In this document: piece by piece, positions 2,506-22,722 of the stretch | How positions within the stretch are numbered: position 1 is the stretch's first letter | Layout: every line of letters starts with the position of its first letter | Virus record (IMG/VR): IMGVR_UViG_3300018083_000790 | Span: 1 to 22,722 of that record | Strand: one strand, 5' to 3' | Source: a virus | DNA length: 22,722 bases | Program-made: the position numbers and the translations under genes | The notes under the pieces: model-generated | Databases searched by the model: none | What the model was told of the DNA's origin: nothing | Seen by the model: only the letters and a program-made list of their open reading frames with translations

Positions 2506-3513
2506 ATGCCGGGGATCGGATCTTTAGAATTTAAATTGAAGGGCGTGAACCTGACGCCAGTTTTTAACAACTTGGGTTTGCCCCTAAACAACGCTAGCTG
2601 GGGCAACGTCCTCCTTAATTGGGATGAAACTTTTCCGTTGATTAAAGACTTGATAGACAAGGCGATCGAGGAAATGGGTGTGAATTGTTTTAGACAGATC
2701 GCCTCTCCGGACTTTGTTTTATCAGCCACACCCAGGATGACCCTGACGACATACCTGAACAACTACAGCGAACTGATTTATTATTGCGAATCAAAGGGCT
2801 GTTTTTTTGAGGCAACCGGATGCGGATGGCAGAACCTGGTAGACGTCGATACGCTGGCACCTTTCACAGAAACAAATATCAGGAACCACCTGGTCGAGTT
2901 TGCACAAATGGCCGACGTGCACGACAACGTGATCGGCATAGATTTGATCCAGGAATTTAATGGCTGGGGAAAACTGGATGCCACCAGGACAGAAGCACAA
3001 AACGTCGCGTTCGTGGACTCCCTGACCAGCGCAATAAGGACAGCCGGCGTGACCAAGCAACTGACCTGCAGCATCCAACCCTGGGGAACTTATGATAATT
3101 TATTTGGACAGACCGTCGTACCGTTAGTAGCACCTTATGTGGACTACCTAAATTTTCACACCTACTACTACCCGTTCGACCCTGCCGATATGGCCCCGGC
3201 GCTGTACCTGGGTAAACCGATTTACATGGGCGAAACCGGATGCGCGAGATCAGGACCACTAAGTTACGGAGGTAACCGTTTAGCGTTTACCGTAGATTGG
3301 CAAACACATATCCTGGACCCTAACATAACAGGTATTTCTTTTTGGGCTTTGAACGAGGACGCGACGCCCATCGAAAATTTCCCCTGGGGCCTGTACGACA
3401 ACCTCGGCGTACCCTACGACACGGCCGTTATCGCAGCCTACGCAGCCGTTCCAACTTTCGCCGGCAGCGAGGGAGGCGGAGGACCAAAACCGATACCGGC
3501 GTTTATGTTCTAA
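2506..3513 (+). CDS. GH5-like clan A glycoside hydrolase, tail-associated
   Basis: This 335-residue protein has the layout of a clan GH-A TIM-barrel retaining glycosidase (cellulase/mannanase-like). The predicted acid/base Glu150 lies in IGIDLIQEFNGWG, where the usual Asn before it is replaced by Gln149. The H-x-Y motif (His218, Tyr220) is in LNFHTYYY, the nucleophile Glu243 is in KPIYMGETGCA, and the conserved barrel-end Trp280 is in GISFWALNED. There is no signal peptide, as expected for an enzyme carried on a virion rather than secreted. It starts two bases after the stop of the fibre-like gene, so it probably acts with that protein by cutting a capsule, cell-wall or exopolysaccharide glycan. 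The substrate cannot be read from the sequence. The C-terminus is a Gly/Pro-rich tail. Confidence 0.75.
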   Translation: MPGIGSLEFKLKGVNLTPVFNNLGLPLNNASWGNVLLNWDETFPLIKDLIDKAIEEMGVNCFRQIASPDFVLSATPRMTLTTYLNNYSELIYYCESKGCFFEATGCGWQNLVDVDTLAPFTETNIRNHLVEFAQMADVHDNVIGIDLIQEFNGWGKLDATRTEAQNVAFVDSLTSAIRTAGVTKQLTCSIQPWGTYDNLFGQTVVPLVAPYVDYLNFHTYYYPFDPADMAPALYLGKPIYMGETGCARSGPLSYGGNRLAFTVDWQTHILDPNITGISFWALNEDATPIENFPWGLYDNLGVPYDTAVIAAYAAVPTFAGSEGGGGPKPIPAFMF

Positions 3514-3523
3514 ACAAACCGAC

Positions 3524-6034
3524 ATGAAAAAATTATTTTTTGCTCTGCTCTTACTGTCAAGCATAACCGCTGTGGCACAACCCAAGCACTACGTTGTCCC
3601 GGTCGCCGTTACCGTCGGCAACGAACAACAGAATTCGAACCAGGGAATAAGGGCTGTGGGAGGGACGGCATACGGAGGACCCGAGTACAACGAGAACCGC
3701 AACGTTGTCCGTTTCCAGGAAACCCTGGCACCAGGAGAGACCCTGAGCTTTGACATCATAAACCAGAACAACATGTACGTGATCGGCCTGGCCCCAGGGA
3801 CCAGCCACACCAACGTATACTCCACCCCGGTCGGCAACACCCAGGTAAGGTACGGGATGACCGTAGGGAACAGCTCCAAGGCCAGCGTTTACGAGGGCGG
3901 ATACATTATCACCAACACGACGATCGCCTCGGGAAACTACCTGCAAATCGCCTACGAGGGCACGCAGATCAAGTACAAAAAGAGCACCAACGGCGGAAGC
4001 ACCTGGTCAACTTTTTACACCTCGACCTGGACGGCCAGCGGGAGCTATAACATTTATTTCGAGGCACCACCGCAATACGCCGGACCAAATAACATTTATA
4101 AACAGGGGACTGTGACCAACCAGGCGCCGACGGTTTCCGCCGGACCGGATAAGGCGACGACCCTACCGACAAACCAGGTGACCCTGACCGGAACAGCGAC
4201 AGACCCGGACGGCACCATAGCCACCAGGGCCTGGACCAAGGTCAGCGGACCAGCGGGAGGAGACCTGGCCACAGCCAATAACATCAGCACCCAGGTAACC
4301 AACCTGCAGCTGGGATCATACGTTTACCGATTTACCGCAACCGACAACCAGGGAGCAAGCGCCCAGGACGAAGCGACGGTCACGGTTTCAGGAGCGGACC
4401 CCAACGGATCTACCACCCTGACCTTTCCGGTTATACCCTTCAGCCAACCAGACTTTAAATGGCGGGGAGGAGGATCGGAGCAATGGCACGACCAATACTA
4501 CGTGAACATACCCACCGAGGCCGACCGCAAACCGCTGGACGCCGTTTATTTCCGGTTTGCCTGGAAGGAAATCGAGACCAGCCAAAACGTATTCCGGTGG
4601 GCGACCCTGGAGGACGAGATCAAGCGATGCATAGACGCCGGCCAGGTTTTCGGATTTGGGATCATGACGCAAACTGCCAGCTCGAGCTGGAGGACCGGCG
4701 TGCAGATGGACCAGGACCAAGGCGTCACAATGTACTACCCGGTTTATTTGCACCGGATGATGCAGGCCGGCGCAACCAACACCCGCGACTACATCCGGCA
4801 CGACGGCGGAGAATGGGTGCCCAATTATAACCACCCGGAATTTATAGCGCAAACCAGGAAACTGAACGACTCGATCTACGCCTGGCTGAACCGGACCAGC
4901 TACAAGGGGCACAAATACGCCGACGTTATAAATTACATCGACATCCGCCACGTTGGGGAGTGGGGAGAATGGCACTACAACCACACCGCCCCGGACACGA
5001 CCTACTGGCCAGCCGGGAGGCAGCCAACGATAGCGAGTTACAAGGCGATCATAGACGCCTACGTGGACGCCTACCCGACATTAAAGACAGCGATCAACGT
5101 CTCGGTTTACGACGCCAGGCAAATACCCAACACCTGGATACCAGCGGAAGTGGCGCACTACGCCCTGACCAAAAGGAATGCCTGGGGCCTGGTCGGCTGG
5201 CGCCGGGACCAATGGGGATTTGCCGACAACCAGGCCACCTACGTCCGCACCTGGACGGACCAGAACGTTAAAACTTTTGGAGGGATGAGATTTGACACCG
5301 TGATCATGGACCGCCACAACTTCGCCCCGGTGATCGGGGAGCCGCCAGGGAACTGGAACAACGGCGACCAGCCCTACATGAAAAACCTGCCGACCGAGAC
5401 CAGGAGATATAAACCGATGAGCTGGGGCAATGGAAACTTTTGGACCAGCCCGATGTACCGACCCGACCTGTTGACCCAGGGGACCCGCGACAGCGTCCGC
5501 CTGGCCAGCAAGCTGGCTGGCGCCCGCCTGCAGATAGATAGCGCCGTAATGAGCACGCAGACGACCCAGGGAGGCATAATCAACCTAAAGGTTTACTGGC
5601 GCAACGCTGGCGTTTGCCCGACCTACGAAACCTGGATCGTTAAATACCGGATCAAAGATGGCAGCGGAACGACGGTCATGACCAGCACCAGCAACTTTAA
5701 ACCTAAATGGTTTAGGGTTAACCCGACACCGACCCTGGTCGAGGACCAGATCACGGTCCCAGGGAACCTGCCGACAGGGAGCTACAGCCTCTGGATGATC
5801 ATAGAGGACAGCCTGGCCTACCGACCACCGCTGGCCATAGCCAACCAGGGAAGGACAGCGGCAGGAGAATACCAGCTCCGGTCCTCTTTCCAGATCGGAG
5901 AGGAGTGCACGGACTGCGTGGCCATGAGGAGCAGCCGGAACAAGTGGAGGATCAGTTTCTTTATTTTACTCGGCGTGGCGCTGATCGTTACGCTCCTGGG
6001 CAACACCCTGAGAGCCAAGCTGAAAGGACGTTAA
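3524..6034 (+). CDS. Secreted, membrane-anchored multidomain protein with glycosidase-like barrel (DUF4832-like)
   Basis: This 836-residue protein has a Sec signal peptide (MKKLFFALLLLSSITAVA, likely cut after Ala18). A beta-sandwich of carbohydrate-binding type follows at about 31-182, then a PKD/K319-like domain at 200-290 (GPDKATTLPTNQVTLTGTA... with TATDPDG and RAWTKVSGP). Next is a TIM-barrel-like region at 300-620 containing DIRHVGEWGEWH (Glu479, Glu482) and GEPPGNW (Glu606). A C-terminal beta-sandwich at about 660-790 resembles DUF4832, and a membrane helix at about 808-829 is followed by a basic end (RAKLKGR). The signal peptide plus basic-ended anchor predicts a type I protein facing the periplasm. 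This architecture is odd for a virion protein and suggests export by the infected host. The two carboxylates make hydrolase activity possible but unproven. Confidence 0.7.
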   Translation: MKKLFFALLLLSSITAVAQPKHYVVPVAVTVGNEQQNSNQGIRAVGGTAYGGPEYNENRNVVRFQETLAPGETLSFDIINQNNMYVIGLAPGTSHTNVYSTPVGNTQVRYGMTVGNSSKASVYEGGYIITNTTIASGNYLQIAYEGTQIKYKKSTNGGSTWSTFYTSTWTASGSYNIYFEAPPQYAGPNNIYKQGTVTNQAPTVSAGPDKATTLPTNQVTLTGTATDPDGTIATRAWTKVSGPAGGDLATANNISTQVTNLQLGSYVYRFTATDNQGASAQDEATVTVSGADPNGSTTLTFPVIPFSQPDFKWRGGGSEQWHDQYYVNIPTEADRKPLDAVYFRFAWKEIETSQNVFRWATLEDEIKRCIDAGQVFGFGIMTQTASSSWRTGVQMDQDQGVTMYYPVYLHRMMQAGATNTRDYIRHDGGEWVPNYNHPEFIAQTRKLNDSIYAWLNRTSYKGHKYADVINYIDIRHVGEWGEWHYNHTAPDTTYWPAGRQPTIASYKAIIDAYVDAYPTLKTAINVSVYDARQIPNTWIPAEVAHYALTKRNAWGLVGWRRDQWGFADNQATYVRTWTDQNVKTFGGMRFDTVIMDRHNFAPVIGEPPGNWNNGDQPYMKNLPTETRRYKPMSWGNGNFWTSPMYRPDLLTQGTRDSVRLASKLAGARLQIDSAVMSTQTTQGGIINLKVYWRNAGVCPTYETWIVKYRIKDGSGTTVMTSTSNFKPKWFRVNPTPTLVEDQITVPGNLPTGSYSLWMIIEDSLAYRPPLAIANQGRTAAGEYQLRSSFQIGEECTDCVAMRSSRNKWRISFFILLGVALIVTLLGNTLRAKLKGR

Positions 6035-6040
6035 CAGAAT

Positions 6041-6098
6041 TTTAACAAATAAATATACACGAAGGTGCACGAAAGTGCACCTTTTTGTTTTATGTTCG
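6041..6098 (+). promoter_or_regulatory. Hairpin-promoter element, copy 1
   Basis: The block opens with TTTAACAAAT, contains GTGCACGAAAGTGCAC, and ends in TATGTTCG (6091-6098). That box has one mismatch to the Bacteroidota -7 box TAnnTTTG. It starts the small-gene block 18 bases before an ATG. No TTTG -33 box is visible; the inverted repeat occupies that position, so it could be an operator. It matches copy 2 at 6961-7017 almost base for base. Confidence 0.55.
6062..6090 (+). terminator. GAAA-capped hairpin with T-run, likely terminator of the tail operon
   Basis: A perfect 9-bp stem (6062-6070 with 6075-6083) closes on a GAAA loop through a C-G pair and is followed by TTTGTTT. It lies 27 bases after the stop of the 836-residue gene. 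The T-rich tail supports intrinsic termination. The same hairpin recurs at 6982-7003 without a T-run, so termination may not be its only function. Confidence 0.6.
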
Positions 6099-6116
6099 CA
6101 TTTCAAACAACAAGCC

Positions 6117-6362: not shown

Positions 6363-6369
6363 AATAACC

Positions 6370-6385
6370 GGGGCCTCCGGGCCCC
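6370..6385 (+). promoter_or_regulatory. UNCG-capped intergenic hairpin, copy 1 (loop UCCG)
   Basis: A perfect 6-bp stem GGGGCC/GGCCCC encloses TCCG, 7 bases after a stop codon and 14 bases before the next ATG. The flanks AACC and ACAA are shared with copies at 7382 and 7629. There is no T-run afterwards, so a standard intrinsic terminator is unlikely. RNA processing, mRNA stabilisation or translational insulation are possible. Confidence 0.7.
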
Positions 6386-6399
6386 ACAATACCAACAGC

Positions 6400-6609
6400 A
6401 TGAAATCAAGAAACGAATTTGCCAACGACGCCTTTTATAACGACTACCTCCTGGCCTATTACGCCGGACAATTCCTGGCAGCCAGGGCGACCGGCCCCTA
6501 CGTGGTGAACGCGGAAGCAGCCGTTCTCCAGGCCCAAGCCCTGATCAACGCCCTGAAGGCTTACCAGCCAGGAACCAAGACAGCCGACACCAAAACCTTC
6601 AACTATTAA
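6400..6609 (+). CDS. Small hypothetical protein
   Basis: A 69-residue acidic-to-neutral protein, predicted mainly helical, with an aromatic N-terminal half (DAFYNDYLLAYYAGQFLA), an Ala-rich helix (NAEAAVLQAQALINALKAY) and a polar tail. It has no membrane helix or signal peptide. It sits between a UNCG hairpin and a 111-residue gene of common phage type. I do not recognise the family. Confidence 0.55.
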   Translation: MKSRNEFANDAFYNDYLLAYYAGQFLAARATGPYVVNAEAAVLQAQALINALKAYQPGTKTADTKTFNY

Positions 6610-6618
6610 AACCCCGAT

Positions 6619-6954
6619 ATGAACAACAAACACAGCAAAGGACCCTGGGCCGTTTCCTGGAACACGTTAAACGGAGGAGAGGCTCACGGCATCTACGCCA
6701 GCGGCGAGATGGACCTAACCGACTTCAGGATCGCGACCGTTAACTGGTACCCGACCATGAACCAGGATGCCGACGAGGAGACCGGCAAAGGGAACGCCAG
6801 GCTCATAGCAGCGGCGCCCGAGCTCCTGCAGGCCCTGGTAAACATGGTGGTTTATTTCGGGACCGTGCCAGGGATGAACAGGAGCGAACCCCAGGAGCTG
6901 GTGATCAAGGAGGCCAGGCGACTGATCCTGGGTTTGAACAGCGTACCCCACTAA
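6619..6954 (+). CDS. Phage protein with NARLIAAAPELL motif
   Basis: This 111-residue protein has an N-terminal KGPWAVSWN segment, a central beta-like region, and the motif GNARLIAAAPELLQALVNMV (residues about 58-77). That motif is seen in many small phage and prophage proteins of unknown role. The C-terminal region is an amphipathic helix (ELVIKEARRLILGL). The ATG is 9 bases after the preceding stop. Family membership is recognised from the motif; the biochemical function of such proteins is not known to me. Confidence 0.65.
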   Translation: MNNKHSKGPWAVSWNTLNGGEAHGIYASGEMDLTDFRIATVNWYPTMNQDADEETGKGNARLIAAAPELLQALVNMVVYFGTVPGMNRSEPQELVIKEARRLILGLNSVPH

Positions 6955-6960
6955 CAAAAC

Positions 6961-7017
6961 TTTAACAAATTTATTTACACGATAGTGCACGAAAGTGCAC
7001 TATTCGCGTTATGTTTG
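6961..7017 (+). promoter_or_regulatory. Hairpin-promoter element, copy 2
   Basis: The block has TTTAACAAAT, a perfect 9-bp stem (6982-6990 with 6995-7003) capped by GAAA, and TATGTTTG (7010-7017), a full match to the Bacteroidota -7 box TAnnTTTG. Two outer stem pairs differ from copy 1 but remain paired, so the hairpin itself is conserved. No T-run follows, so this copy reads as a promoter with an operator or leader hairpin rather than a terminator. The next ATG is 34 bases downstream. Confidence 0.65.
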
Positions 7018-7051
7018 CAATTCACCCGGCGGAAGCCACAAACACAAAAAC

Positions 7052-7375
7052 ATGACCACCTACAAACTGACCAAGACCCCGATCGGAAAAAAAGGAATCG
7101 AATTTTTATACCAGGTCATCGACCAGGACGGCAAAGAGATCAGCCGCCGGACCAGCATGAGAAACTACGTGGCCTGCACGATCAGCGGCAGCCACTACTT
7201 CGGACGCCGGGACCTGGTAGGCAAAGGAGAGCACGGCGACATGATCAAGATGGCCCAAGGCTGGGGCAGGAGACGCGATGCACGCGGCAGGTACAACTGG
7301 GTAAAAGTGAACGAGCCGAACCAGGACATGATAGACCGCGCCAACCAGGTCGCCTACCTGGACGAGACCAAATAA
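7052..7375 (+). CDS. Small basic hypothetical protein
   Basis: A 107-residue basic protein counted from ATG 7052. An in-frame ATG at 6995 lies inside the hairpin upstream of the promoter box and is rejected. Visible features are TYKLTKTPIGKKGIEFLYQVID, then YVACTISGSHYFGRRDLVGKG and a strongly basic run (GRRRDARGRYNW). The basic run would suit nucleic-acid binding, but no known fold is recognisable. It is the first gene after hairpin-promoter copy 2 and is followed by UNCG hairpin copy 2. Confidence 0.6.
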   Translation: MTTYKLTKTPIGKKGIEFLYQVIDQDGKEISRRTSMRNYVACTISGSHYFGRRDLVGKGEHGDMIKMAQGWGRRRDARGRYNWVKVNEPNQDMIDRANQVAYLDETK

Positions 7376-7381
7376 ATAACC

Positions 7382-7397
7382 GGGGCCTACGGGCCCC
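7382..7397 (+). promoter_or_regulatory. UNCG-capped intergenic hairpin, copy 2 (loop UACG)
   Basis: The stem GGGGCC/GGCCCC matches the copies at 6370 and 7629, with loop TACG. It lies 15 bases before the next ATG and has the same AACC and ACAA flanks. No T-run follows. Confidence 0.7.
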
Positions 7398-7412
7398 ACA
7401 AAACCAACCACC

Positions 7413-7622
7413 ATGACCATCGAACAAAAAAGAAGCCTGGCGATCATAAACGAGCACCTGGAGGACCAGGGCGCCAGCACCTGGAGCGAATACAACGCCA
7501 AGGACCTGGGCCTGACCGGCCAGGAAAGCGAGGCTGAGCTTTACGAGATCGCCCGCGAGATAGCCAGCGAGGAGGCCACCGAGAAGGCCTACTTCAAAAA
7601 CGCCTGGAGATTTGAGATTTAA
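7413..7622 (+). CDS. Small acidic hypothetical protein
   Basis: A 69-residue, strongly acidic, mostly helical protein (many Glu and Ala, e.g. ESEAELYEIAREIASEEATEKAY). It has no cysteines, membrane helix or signal peptide. Small acidic phage early proteins are often DNA mimics or inhibitors of host enzymes; that is a possibility only, since no specific family is recognised. It is flanked on both sides by UNCG hairpins. Confidence 0.55.
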   Translation: MTIEQKRSLAIINEHLEDQGASTWSEYNAKDLGLTGQESEAELYEIAREIASEEATEKAYFKNAWRFEI

Positions 7623-7628
7623 ACAACC

Positions 7629-7644
7629 GGGGCCTTCGGGCCCC
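7629..7644 (+). promoter_or_regulatory. UNCG-capped intergenic hairpin, copy 3 (loop UUCG)
   Basis: The stem GGGGCC/GGCCCC has loop TTCG, the most stable UNCG tetraloop. It starts 6 bases after a stop codon and ends 14 bases before the next ATG. Across the three copies the stem is invariant and the loop differs only at its second base, the position left free in UNCG loops. Confidence 0.7.
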
Positions 7645-7658
7645 ACAAAACCCAAGAC

Positions 7659-7973
7659 ATGATACAGATCACAAAAACCCAGGGGAGCAGCGTGGAGACC
7701 CGCTACTTCCCTCACACCACCCGAGGACAACAGCAGGCCACAAAATGGATACAGGAGCTCCACGACGCGCAAAAGCGCAACCGCTGGTTTTACCTGATGG
7801 ACCGGATACAGCGACGCCAGGTCATCATCGACAGCCAATGGAACTACAACAGCGACAAAGCCAGGCAGGCCCGCCGGGAGATACGCGACCTTATGGACGA
7901 GCGGGCCGTTTTCATCGCGGCCAACGGCCTCACCAAACCCGACCCTATCACCGTAAAAATTGAGACGACATGA
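7659..7973 (+). CDS. Small basic helical hypothetical protein
   Basis: A 104-residue basic protein. A beta-like N-terminus (MIQITKTQGSSVETRYF) leads into a long Arg/Gln-rich helical region (residues about 22-90). The stop overlaps the start of the lipoprotein gene (ATGA), so the two are translationally coupled. No recognised domain. It lacks a membrane helix, which argues against it being an inner-membrane spanin partner for the lipoprotein. Confidence 0.55.
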   Translation: MIQITKTQGSSVETRYFPHTTRGQQQATKWIQELHDAQKRNRWFYLMDRIQRRQVIIDSQWNYNSDKARQARREIRDLMDERAVFIAANGLTKPDPITVKIETT

Positions 7974-8251
7974 AACGACTACTACCGGCCCTTTTTCTTT
8001 TAGCCATCGGCTGCAGCAAGGACGAGAACCCGTGCCCCGGACCAGGGACGATAGGCCTCCGCCCGCCAGGGATCGTGACCTGGACCAACCCGGTCCAGGT
8101 ACAGATCGAGGTGCAGGGAATTAGCTGGCCAGGTCACGCGATCATGACGCCCAACGAGACCCTAGAGCACCGGATCGAGGGGCACGCGATGGTGCGGATC
8201 AAAACTGATTGTTCACCCTGGTCCACCTGGATCGAGATCAACAAGCCATAA
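7970..8251 (+). CDS. Small lipoprotein with putative surface-export signal
   Basis: This 93-residue protein has a signal peptide (MKRLLPALFLLAIGC) ending in a lipobox, so Cys15 should be lipidated. The residues just after it, SKDEN, fit the Lys-Asp/Glu-rich lipoprotein export signal that sends lipoproteins to the outer face of the Bacteroidota outer membrane. The mature part is about 78 residues, with a Pro/Gly-rich start (CPGPGTIGLRPPG), beta-like strands and a second and third Cys. It is coupled to the preceding gene by ATGA. Phage lipoproteins are known as superinfection-exclusion factors and as outer-membrane spanins. The surface signal favours exclusion, but this is inference. Confidence 0.65.
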   Translation: MKRLLPALFLLAIGCSKDENPCPGPGTIGLRPPGIVTWTNPVQVQIEVQGISWPGHAIMTPNETLEHRIEGHAMVRIKTDCSPWSTWIEINKP

Positions 8252-8291
8252 AATAAATACCCGGACCTGCACGCGATTACACGAACTTCCT

Positions 8292-8299
8292 TATATTTG
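8292..8299 (+). promoter_or_regulatory. Promoter-like -7 box TATATTTG
   Basis: TATATTTG is a full match to the Bacteroidota -7 consensus, 16 bases upstream of an ATG and in a 64-base gap after the lipoprotein gene. No clear TTG -33 box is visible at the usual distance. Upstream sequence includes TACACGAA (8277-8284), part of which also occurs in the hairpin-promoter elements at 6041 and 6961. Confidence 0.5.
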
Positions 8300-8315
8300 C
8301 ACAAACCCAACCAGC

Positions 8316-12090: not shown

Positions 12091-12122
12091 GGCCTGGAGC
12101 AATAGCCTCCGGGCCTTTTTTT
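12091..12122 (+). terminator. Rho-independent terminator after the SSB gene
   Basis: A 9-bp stem (12091-12099 with 12107-12115, one G-U pair) closes a 7-base loop and is followed by seven T residues (12116-12122). It lies 20 bases after the SSB stop. It would cut transcription before the HNH/polymerase genes unless there is antitermination or a promoter downstream. Confidence 0.85.
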
Positions 12123-22424: not shown

Positions 22425-22722
22425 CGAGGGGAGGGAAAAGGGGCGAGCCAAAAACCGTAACAAGAGTGACGCCTTAAAAAAGGCGATGCTCGAGGCGCTC
22501 AAATCCACCCTGGGCGTGGTTACCCCAGCGGCGGAGATCACAGGGATCGCCAGGGAATCCCACTACCGATGGTACGAAACCGACAGCAAATACCGGAAGC
22601 AGGTCGACAGCATTAAGGATATCGCCCTGGACTTTGCCGAATCGAAGCTCCACCAATCGATCAAGGGAGGCAGCGACACGGCTAACATCTTCTTTCTGAA
22701 AACCCAGGGCAAGCGCCGAGGG
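22405..22722 (+). CDS. terS: Terminase small subunit, N-terminal part (truncated by window end)
   Basis: The ATG at 22405 lies inside the end of the methyltransferase gene (20-base overlap, different frame) and the frame stays open to the window end, giving 106 residues. A basic N-terminus (EKGRAKNRNKSDALKKAML) is followed by a helix-turn-helix (TPAAEITGIARESHYRWYETDSKYRKQVDSI). The segment DFAESKLHQSIKGGSDTANIFFLKTQGKRRG is characteristic of HTH-type phage small terminase subunits. The protein recognises the packaging site and loads the large subunit, expected just beyond the window. Confidence 0.82.
   Translation, partial: MATNLTDEGREKGRAKNRNKSDALKKAMLEALKSTLGVVTPAAEITGIARESHYRWYETDSKYRKQVDSIKDIALDFAESKLHQSIKGGSDTANIFFLKTQGKRRG

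Follow-up and report, generated by a model that had tools for sequence, protein, structure and literature searches.

Stop-codon-locked tetraloop hairpins between small phage genes form a recurrent family and may act as barriers to 3′-5′ mRNA decay

Three GC-rich tetraloop hairpins separate small genes in a 22,722-base stretch of viral DNA (IMG/VR record IMGVR_UViG_3300018083_000790, positions 1 to 22,722; hereafter the window), and they belong to a module, stop codon-AACC-GC-rich stem-mostly UNCG loop-ACA(A)-start codon, that recurs on dozens of IMG/VR phage contigs. Comparison of the family members indicates that the RNA structure is under selection, and the hairpin keeps a nearly fixed distance to the upstream stop codon. 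We put at about 0.5 the probability that the hairpin is an intercistronic 3′-boundary element, a barrier without a U-tract that would resist 3′-5′ decay inside phage operons. This kind of hairpin is known from the CUUCGG hairpins of phage T4, and the stop-locked family flanked by AACC and ACAA is new.

Exact matches to GGGGCCTNCGGGCCCC occur three times on the + strand of the window (Table 1). All three form a perfect 6-bp stem, GGGGCC/GGCCCC, closed by a C-G pair and capped by the loops UCCG, UACG, and UUCG, and they have the block AACC-hairpin-ACAA in common. Each occupies a gap of 36–37 nt between co-directional genes, starting 6–7 nt past the stop codon and ending 14, 15, and 14 nt before the ATG, respectively, and the positions, flanks, and placement between stop and ATG reported in the initial annotation are thus exact. 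The hairpins are real and non-random: Markov-1 simulation gives an expectation of 0.045 perfect 6-bp UNCG hairpins per window against three observed, and the highest count in 200 simulations was two. A tolerant motif search with up to three mismatches was less informative than exact matching, because palindromes also match the other strand. The predicted energy of each 16-mer is approximately −13 to −14 kcal/mol. The only other listed perfect tetraloop hairpins of at least 6 bp in the gene gaps of the window are the GAAA palindromes at 6062 and 6982 and an AT-rich hairpin, CGCCTT-AAAA-AAGGCG, at 22470. Between positions 5900 and 8400, Rfam covariance models gave no match at the gathering score. 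The sequences 3′ of hairpins 1, 2, and 3 are ACAATACC, ACAAAACC, and ACAAAACC, and the hairpins therefore have no T-run, with 0–1 T in the first 8 nt past each stem.

Table 1. Features of the hairpin region of the window. The window copies were training members of hairpin model R1, so their scores of 42–45 bits are not independent.
Feature	Position	Strand	Details
Likely terminator and promoter region before gene A	6035..6116	+	AAGGTGCAC-GAAA-GTGCACCTT at 6062-6083, T-run, then TTATGTTCG
Small gene A, 81 aa	6117..6362	+	Upstream of hairpin 1; no family match
Junction 1, gene A stop to gene B start	6363..6399	+	GGGGCC-TCCG-GGCCCC at 6370-6385; model R1 43.8 bits
Small gene B, 69 aa	6400..6609	+	Between hairpin 1 and gene C; no family match
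Small gene C, 111 aa	6619..6954	+	PHROG 1273 (unknown function), E 2.9e-13
Second copy of the likely terminator and promoter region, before gene D	6955..7051	+	ATAGTGCAC-GAAA-GTGCACTAT at 6982-7003, then TTATGTTTG
Small gene D, 107 aa	7052..7375	+	Upstream of hairpin 2
Junction 2, gene D to gene E	7376..7412	+	GGGGCC-TACG-GGCCCC at 7382-7397; model R1 42.4 bits
Small gene E, 69 aa	7413..7622	+	Between hairpins 2 and 3; weak PHROG 1796 match, E 0.013
Junction 3, gene E to gene F	7623..7658	+	GGGGCC-TTCG-GGCCCC at 7629-7644; model R1 45 bits
Small gene F, 104 aa	7659..7973	+	Downstream of hairpin 3

Around the hairpins is a series of small genes without assigned function, located 3′ of the gene for a large PKD-domain protein and 5′ of a replication module encoding DUF2800, a single-stranded DNA-binding protein, DNA polymerase A, a VapE-like protein, an SNF2 helicase, and a ParB/methyltransferase protein. 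One further IMG/VR contig (L001) represents the same virus, with 8,153 bases in common at 100% identity, and no relatives of genes D and E were found in IMG/VR beyond that virus. Genes A to J, compared with each other, exhibit no significant similarity, and duplication of neighboring genes was therefore rejected as the origin of the hairpin repeats. The gaps before genes A and D are themselves repeats (81% identical over 74 bp) with promoter-like TTATGTT(T/C)G boxes, and they may function as promoters. In each of them a 9-bp palindrome with a GAAA loop is centered around GTGCACGAAAGTGCAC, with outer pairs that differ between the two copies and remain complementary, and is followed by a TAnnTTTG-like box, possibly representing a promoter with a regulator site. 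A third promoter-like gap at 8252–8315 (TTATATTTG) has an ACACGA element in common with these repeats. We infer that hairpin 1 is internal to an operon of genes A, B, and C, and that hairpins 2 and 3 are internal to an operon of genes D, E, F, and G. The remaining gaps within these putative operons are free of hairpins: genes B and C are separated by 9 nt, and gene G (7970–8251) overlaps gene F by 4 nt. After the single-stranded DNA-binding protein gene, at 12091–12115, there is a hairpin resembling a canonical intrinsic terminator (9 pairs, 7 T), suggesting that this virus uses T-run terminators. A GGAGG- or AGGAG-like motif is found upstream of 4 of the 26 listed starts in the window and the other starts have none; the three hairpins precede starts without a Shine-Dalgarno sequence. 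Two papers (PMC6847099, PMC3155529) describe Bacteroidota mRNAs without Shine-Dalgarno sequences. The host is probably a member of the Bacteroidota, which fits the scarcity of Shine-Dalgarno motifs and the TAnnTTTG-like boxes. Toward the left of the window, the 335-aa product of positions 2506–3513 has no Pfam match and by eye resembles a glycoside hydrolase; its gene is flanked by two other large genes.

The initial annotation had read selection on RNA structure from the varying loop base of the window copies. A single varying loop base among three copies is no proof of covariation, so IMG/VR was searched with parts of the motif left free, and it is these other phages that supply the evidence for structural selection, the window copies being insufficient by themselves. 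A pattern that fixed TNCG but left the two inner base pairs free matched 51 sites on 49 contigs, and 47 of the 51 form both pairs (46 with two Watson-Crick pairs and one with a G-U pair). Called gene junctions contain 46 of the 47 paired sites and none of the four unpaired hits. The commonest stem in the family is GGGGGC/GCCCCC, from which the window's GGGGCC/GGCCCC differs by a compensated change at pair five. Both GGGGGC/GCCCCC and its arm-swapped form GCCCCC/GGGGGC occur within identical flanks, TAAACCAACC...ACAACCAAGGAG, in contigs L287 and L293, and the arm-swapped stem is also seen with UCAC or CUCG loops. Because freed inner pairs still pair and the arms swap within identical flanks, selection on structure is indicated for the family, and this part of the earlier proposal is supported. 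An alignment of 38 sequences is 100% paired, with two-sided changes in five of the six pairs and pair counts above every shuffled and slid control, although its rows were picked partly by their stems, which makes the free-pair scan and the arm swap the less bias-prone evidence. When the outer three stem pairs were freed with a TNCG loop, full hairpins came from the GGGGCC copies only and there was no covariation. The search patterns held parts of the stem and flanks constant, so that selection bias accounts for some of the conservation seen there. Some sites also come from related contigs.

The loop is less constrained than was originally thought. A scan with CC/ACAA flanks and a free loop identified 10 contigs, with the hairpin in short sense-strand gaps before an ATG, the exceptions being L213, where the upstream stop is uncalled, and L211, where the contig ends. 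The loops include not only UNCG but also GAAA, GCAA, GATA, GCAC, CCAC, and GAGG, and GCAA and GAAA loops cap three related hairpins at junctions of one contig (L207). The loop can therefore leave the UNCG class while the stem stays. The initial interpretation is accordingly supported in part: the stems pair and unpaired hits fall off the junctions, but the loop changes at positions other than N.

Automatic ORF calling was unreliable in GC-rich loci, and direct tests for stops and starts were therefore applied. The family was defined by a stop codon, a short spacer ending in ACC, a 6-bp stem, a tetraloop, ACA(A), a start within 40 nt, and no T-run, and the window copies conform to it in spacing and sequence. 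A called stop and an ATG bracket 48 of the 51 distinct family sites on the sense strand, and the upstream stop codon is TAA at 42 of these 48. The distance from stop to hairpin is 6 nt at 18 sites and 7 nt at 15 (33 of 48; s.d. 1.7), whereas the distance from hairpin to ATG ranges from 11 to 37 nt (s.d. 4.7). No T is present in the first 8 nt past the stem at 29 sites, and 0–2 T are present at 45 of the 48. The tight stop distance and variable start distance suggest that the hairpin is tied to the end of the upstream gene, and the spacing of 14–15 bases before the start, emphasized initially, is a feature of the window copies and not of the family. Given the size of the ribosome footprint, a spacing of 6–7 nt puts the base of the stem close to the front of a ribosome terminating at the stop. 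Processing by RNase III, which requires a long stem, is unlikely for a stem of 6 bp with flanks that are unpaired in the predicted folds.

Family members are found in isolated as well as environmental phages. In Delftia phage PhiW-14 the hairpin lies between the genes for the alpha and beta subunits of ribonucleotide reductase; across positions 1–50000 of that genome (L328), a strong hairpin follows soon after the stop in many co-directional gaps, with a T-run in some of them. Other named carriers are Sphingomonas phage Birtae and Rhodobacter phage RcSpartan. Xanthomonas phage DoCa7 has a 7-bp variant stem after the major capsid gene, and GGGGCC-TTCG-GGCCCC, with different flanks, is present at a junction in the T4 relatives JD18 and Merlin. 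Some environmental contigs carry several copies: a model search (E up to 1) found 7 matches in one record and 6 in another, six of these matches lying within approximately 2 kb among consecutive small genes. In cellular genomes (84,980 species), 25 matches to the GGGGCC stem in its ACC...ACA form were obtained when the loop was left free; all lacked the ACAA tail, and on reading none lay at an evident stop-hairpin-start junction. The GGGGGC form was absent from all 301 genomes searched of one bacterial family. A host origin of the module was rejected on the basis of these searches.

We favor a decay barrier within operons. In its favor are the locking to the stop codon, the T-poor tail, the selected structure, the copies between the ribonucleotide reductase genes of PhiW-14 and after the capsid gene of DoCa7, and the placement of the window hairpins in 36–37-nt gaps of putative operons whose other junctions are 9 nt long or overlap. 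Within a polycistronic mRNA, the hairpin would form a very stable, short fold 6–7 nt past the stop. With the stem approximately at the leading edge of the terminating ribosome, translation of the upstream gene could be completed without melting the stem, and without a U-tract RNA polymerase would mostly read through. Once the downstream message was cut or decaying, the hairpin would halt 3′-5′ exonucleases and protect the upstream cistron, and neighboring small genes would thereby acquire separate message lifetimes. The A/C-rich, unstructured spacers might hold the next start region open as a side effect, and recurrence of the same module between unrelated small genes may also make it a site of gene exchange. 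Two features count against a pure decay barrier: the conserved AACC and ACAA flanks are left unexplained by it, and some loops in the family (CCAC, UCAC, and CUCG) are outside the ultra-stable classes.

In E. coli, 26 of 34 stabilized upstream operon segments end just past a stable hairpin without a U-tract (PMC5927463). The present hairpins resemble these in their predicted stability, their lack of a U-tract, and their position at the 3′ end of the segment that would be stabilized. However, the E. coli structures are generally within coding regions, not at stops, and do not constitute a single sequence family (PMC5927463); their hallmarks, 3′ ends of RNA located at the base of the hairpin and a prolonged upstream half-life, come from measured decay, whereas the present family is defined by sequence. 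In many phages CUUCGG hairpins are found mainly between genes, and T4 phages are particularly rich in them; the transcript of T4 gene 32 is described as stabilized by a 5′ CUUCGG hairpin (PMC8948821). The intercistronic T4 hairpins go back to Tuerk et al. 1988, as described in PMC8948821. The short GC-rich stem, UUCG loop, C-G closing pair, and mostly intergenic, sense-strand location are alike in the two families (PMC8948821). All three window copies and 48 of the 51 family sites are between genes, and the closing pair is C-G in all three window copies, although a strict C(UUCG)G cap is present in one only, the others having UCCG and UACG. In the first 50 kb of T4, several CUUCGG sites coincide with a stop or lie close to one and lack a strong T-run. 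The examined T4 sites lie closer to the stop than the 6–7 nt of the present family, or overlap it. The present family also differs in its recurrent AACC/ACAA flanks, its variable N of UNCG, its other tetraloops, and, in the window, its position before starts that lack a Shine-Dalgarno sequence. The T4 type is further characterized by stable RNA that stops reverse transcriptase, whereas the stability of the window copies is a matter of predicted energies.

An alternative is that the hairpin and its A/C-rich leader insulate translation, shielding the start region from pairing with upstream sequence and so separating the translation of neighboring cistrons. Consistent with this, the 20 nt before the three window starts are 80–95% A/C, predicted openness of the start regions (0.72–0.83) is at the high end for the window, all window copies end at nearly the same distance from the ATG, and the other gaps of the same putative operons are hairpin-free and short or overlapping. 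However, forbidding the hairpin pairs during folding in a longer context changed openness from 0.81 to 0.80, 0.90 to 0.90, and 0.72 to 0.67, which is a small effect without a single direction, and start-region accessibility was rejected as the main effect. Because the start distance is loose across the family, with the stop distance tight, and the predicted effect on openness is small, we consider translation control unlikely to be the main role.

Termination also fits poorly with the placement, in the form of a partial or Rho-assisted terminator at which polymerase pauses and some transcripts end at the hairpin, or further on and are then trimmed back. The bare GGGGCC-TNCG-GGCCCC hairpin, with any flanks, is common in phages (at least 120 IMG/VR stretches) and usually resembles a terminator: of the 122 sites among the matches listed, 85 are followed by 6 or more T within 12 nt and 95 have a TTCG loop. 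The junction hairpins of PhiW-14 have a T-run in some cases and are T-poor in others, and A/C-rich leaders could admit Rho. In contrast to those T-tailed sites, the window copies have the GC-rich stem of an intrinsic terminator without its U-tract, as do nearly all family members, even though the window has canonical T-run hairpins elsewhere (12091–12115 and 6061–6084). A terminator scan of the + strand did not report the window hairpins, and its total matches there were within the shuffled background. The T-poor tail and the operon-internal placement, for example between two ribonucleotide reductase genes where a full stop would be unexpected, argue against a full terminator, in agreement with the initial view that these are not ordinary terminators, and we regard even a partial one as doubtful.

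A border function for exchange of small genes had also been proposed at the outset, and genes are replaced or gained at the hairpin in a few comparisons, which are suggestive only. Contigs L279 and L299 encode the same 97-aa protein downstream of the hairpin and unrelated proteins upstream of it; L290 and L316 have both flanking genes in common, with an additional 51-aa gene in L316 between the upstream homolog and the hairpin; and between two contig groups the upstream gene is conserved and the downstream gene replaced. The hairpin zone, 1.2% of the sequence, contains 32 of 407 similarity boundaries, but these represent approximately three or four independent events at loci that were chosen for their shared hairpin, and similarity boundaries tend toward gaps anyway. 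DNA recombination would require neither locking to the stop nor paired changes in the stem, and it is improbable that gene exchange is what the repeated hairpin mainly serves. Promoter-stem-loop cassettes, repeated regulatory units between non-homologous small genes, have reportedly been found in T4-type phages. The window is similar in its repeated units between non-homologous small genes and its promoter-like repeats near the hairpins, but here the hairpin and promoter-like units are separate. A broader and speculative view, which we hold with low confidence, is that stop-AACC-hairpin-ACAA is a phage-specific punctuation that isolates cistrons and also serves as a common border for the swapping of small accessory genes among phages whose hosts differ widely. 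Recognition of the stem and AACC/ACAA flanks by a phage or host RNA-binding protein would account for flanks that recur in unrelated phages, including around the arm-swapped stem, but the loop and stem sequences are variable and such a site is very improbable.

Phage genomes are dense in small genes without assigned function, and a transcript mark that separates them may reveal how message levels differ within each operon. If the hairpin is also an exchange border, it would mark where accessory genes come and go. The family is sharply defined and present in isolated phages such as PhiW-14, so that a problem posed by the T4 hairpins in 1988 becomes accessible to direct testing.

Other repeated hairpins were encountered during the searches. 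Among 80 loci with relatives of the DUF2800 gene, none convincingly matched the hairpin model. One of these relatives (L148) has identical 10-bp UUCG hairpins, GCTCACGCAC/GTGCGTGAGC, at two junctions, 11841 and 12301. Contig L277 carries, on the − strand, several junction hairpins GCCGGTG-CGGTT-CACCGGC after a stop codon and ACCCGTA, representing another repeated family, with a pentaloop.
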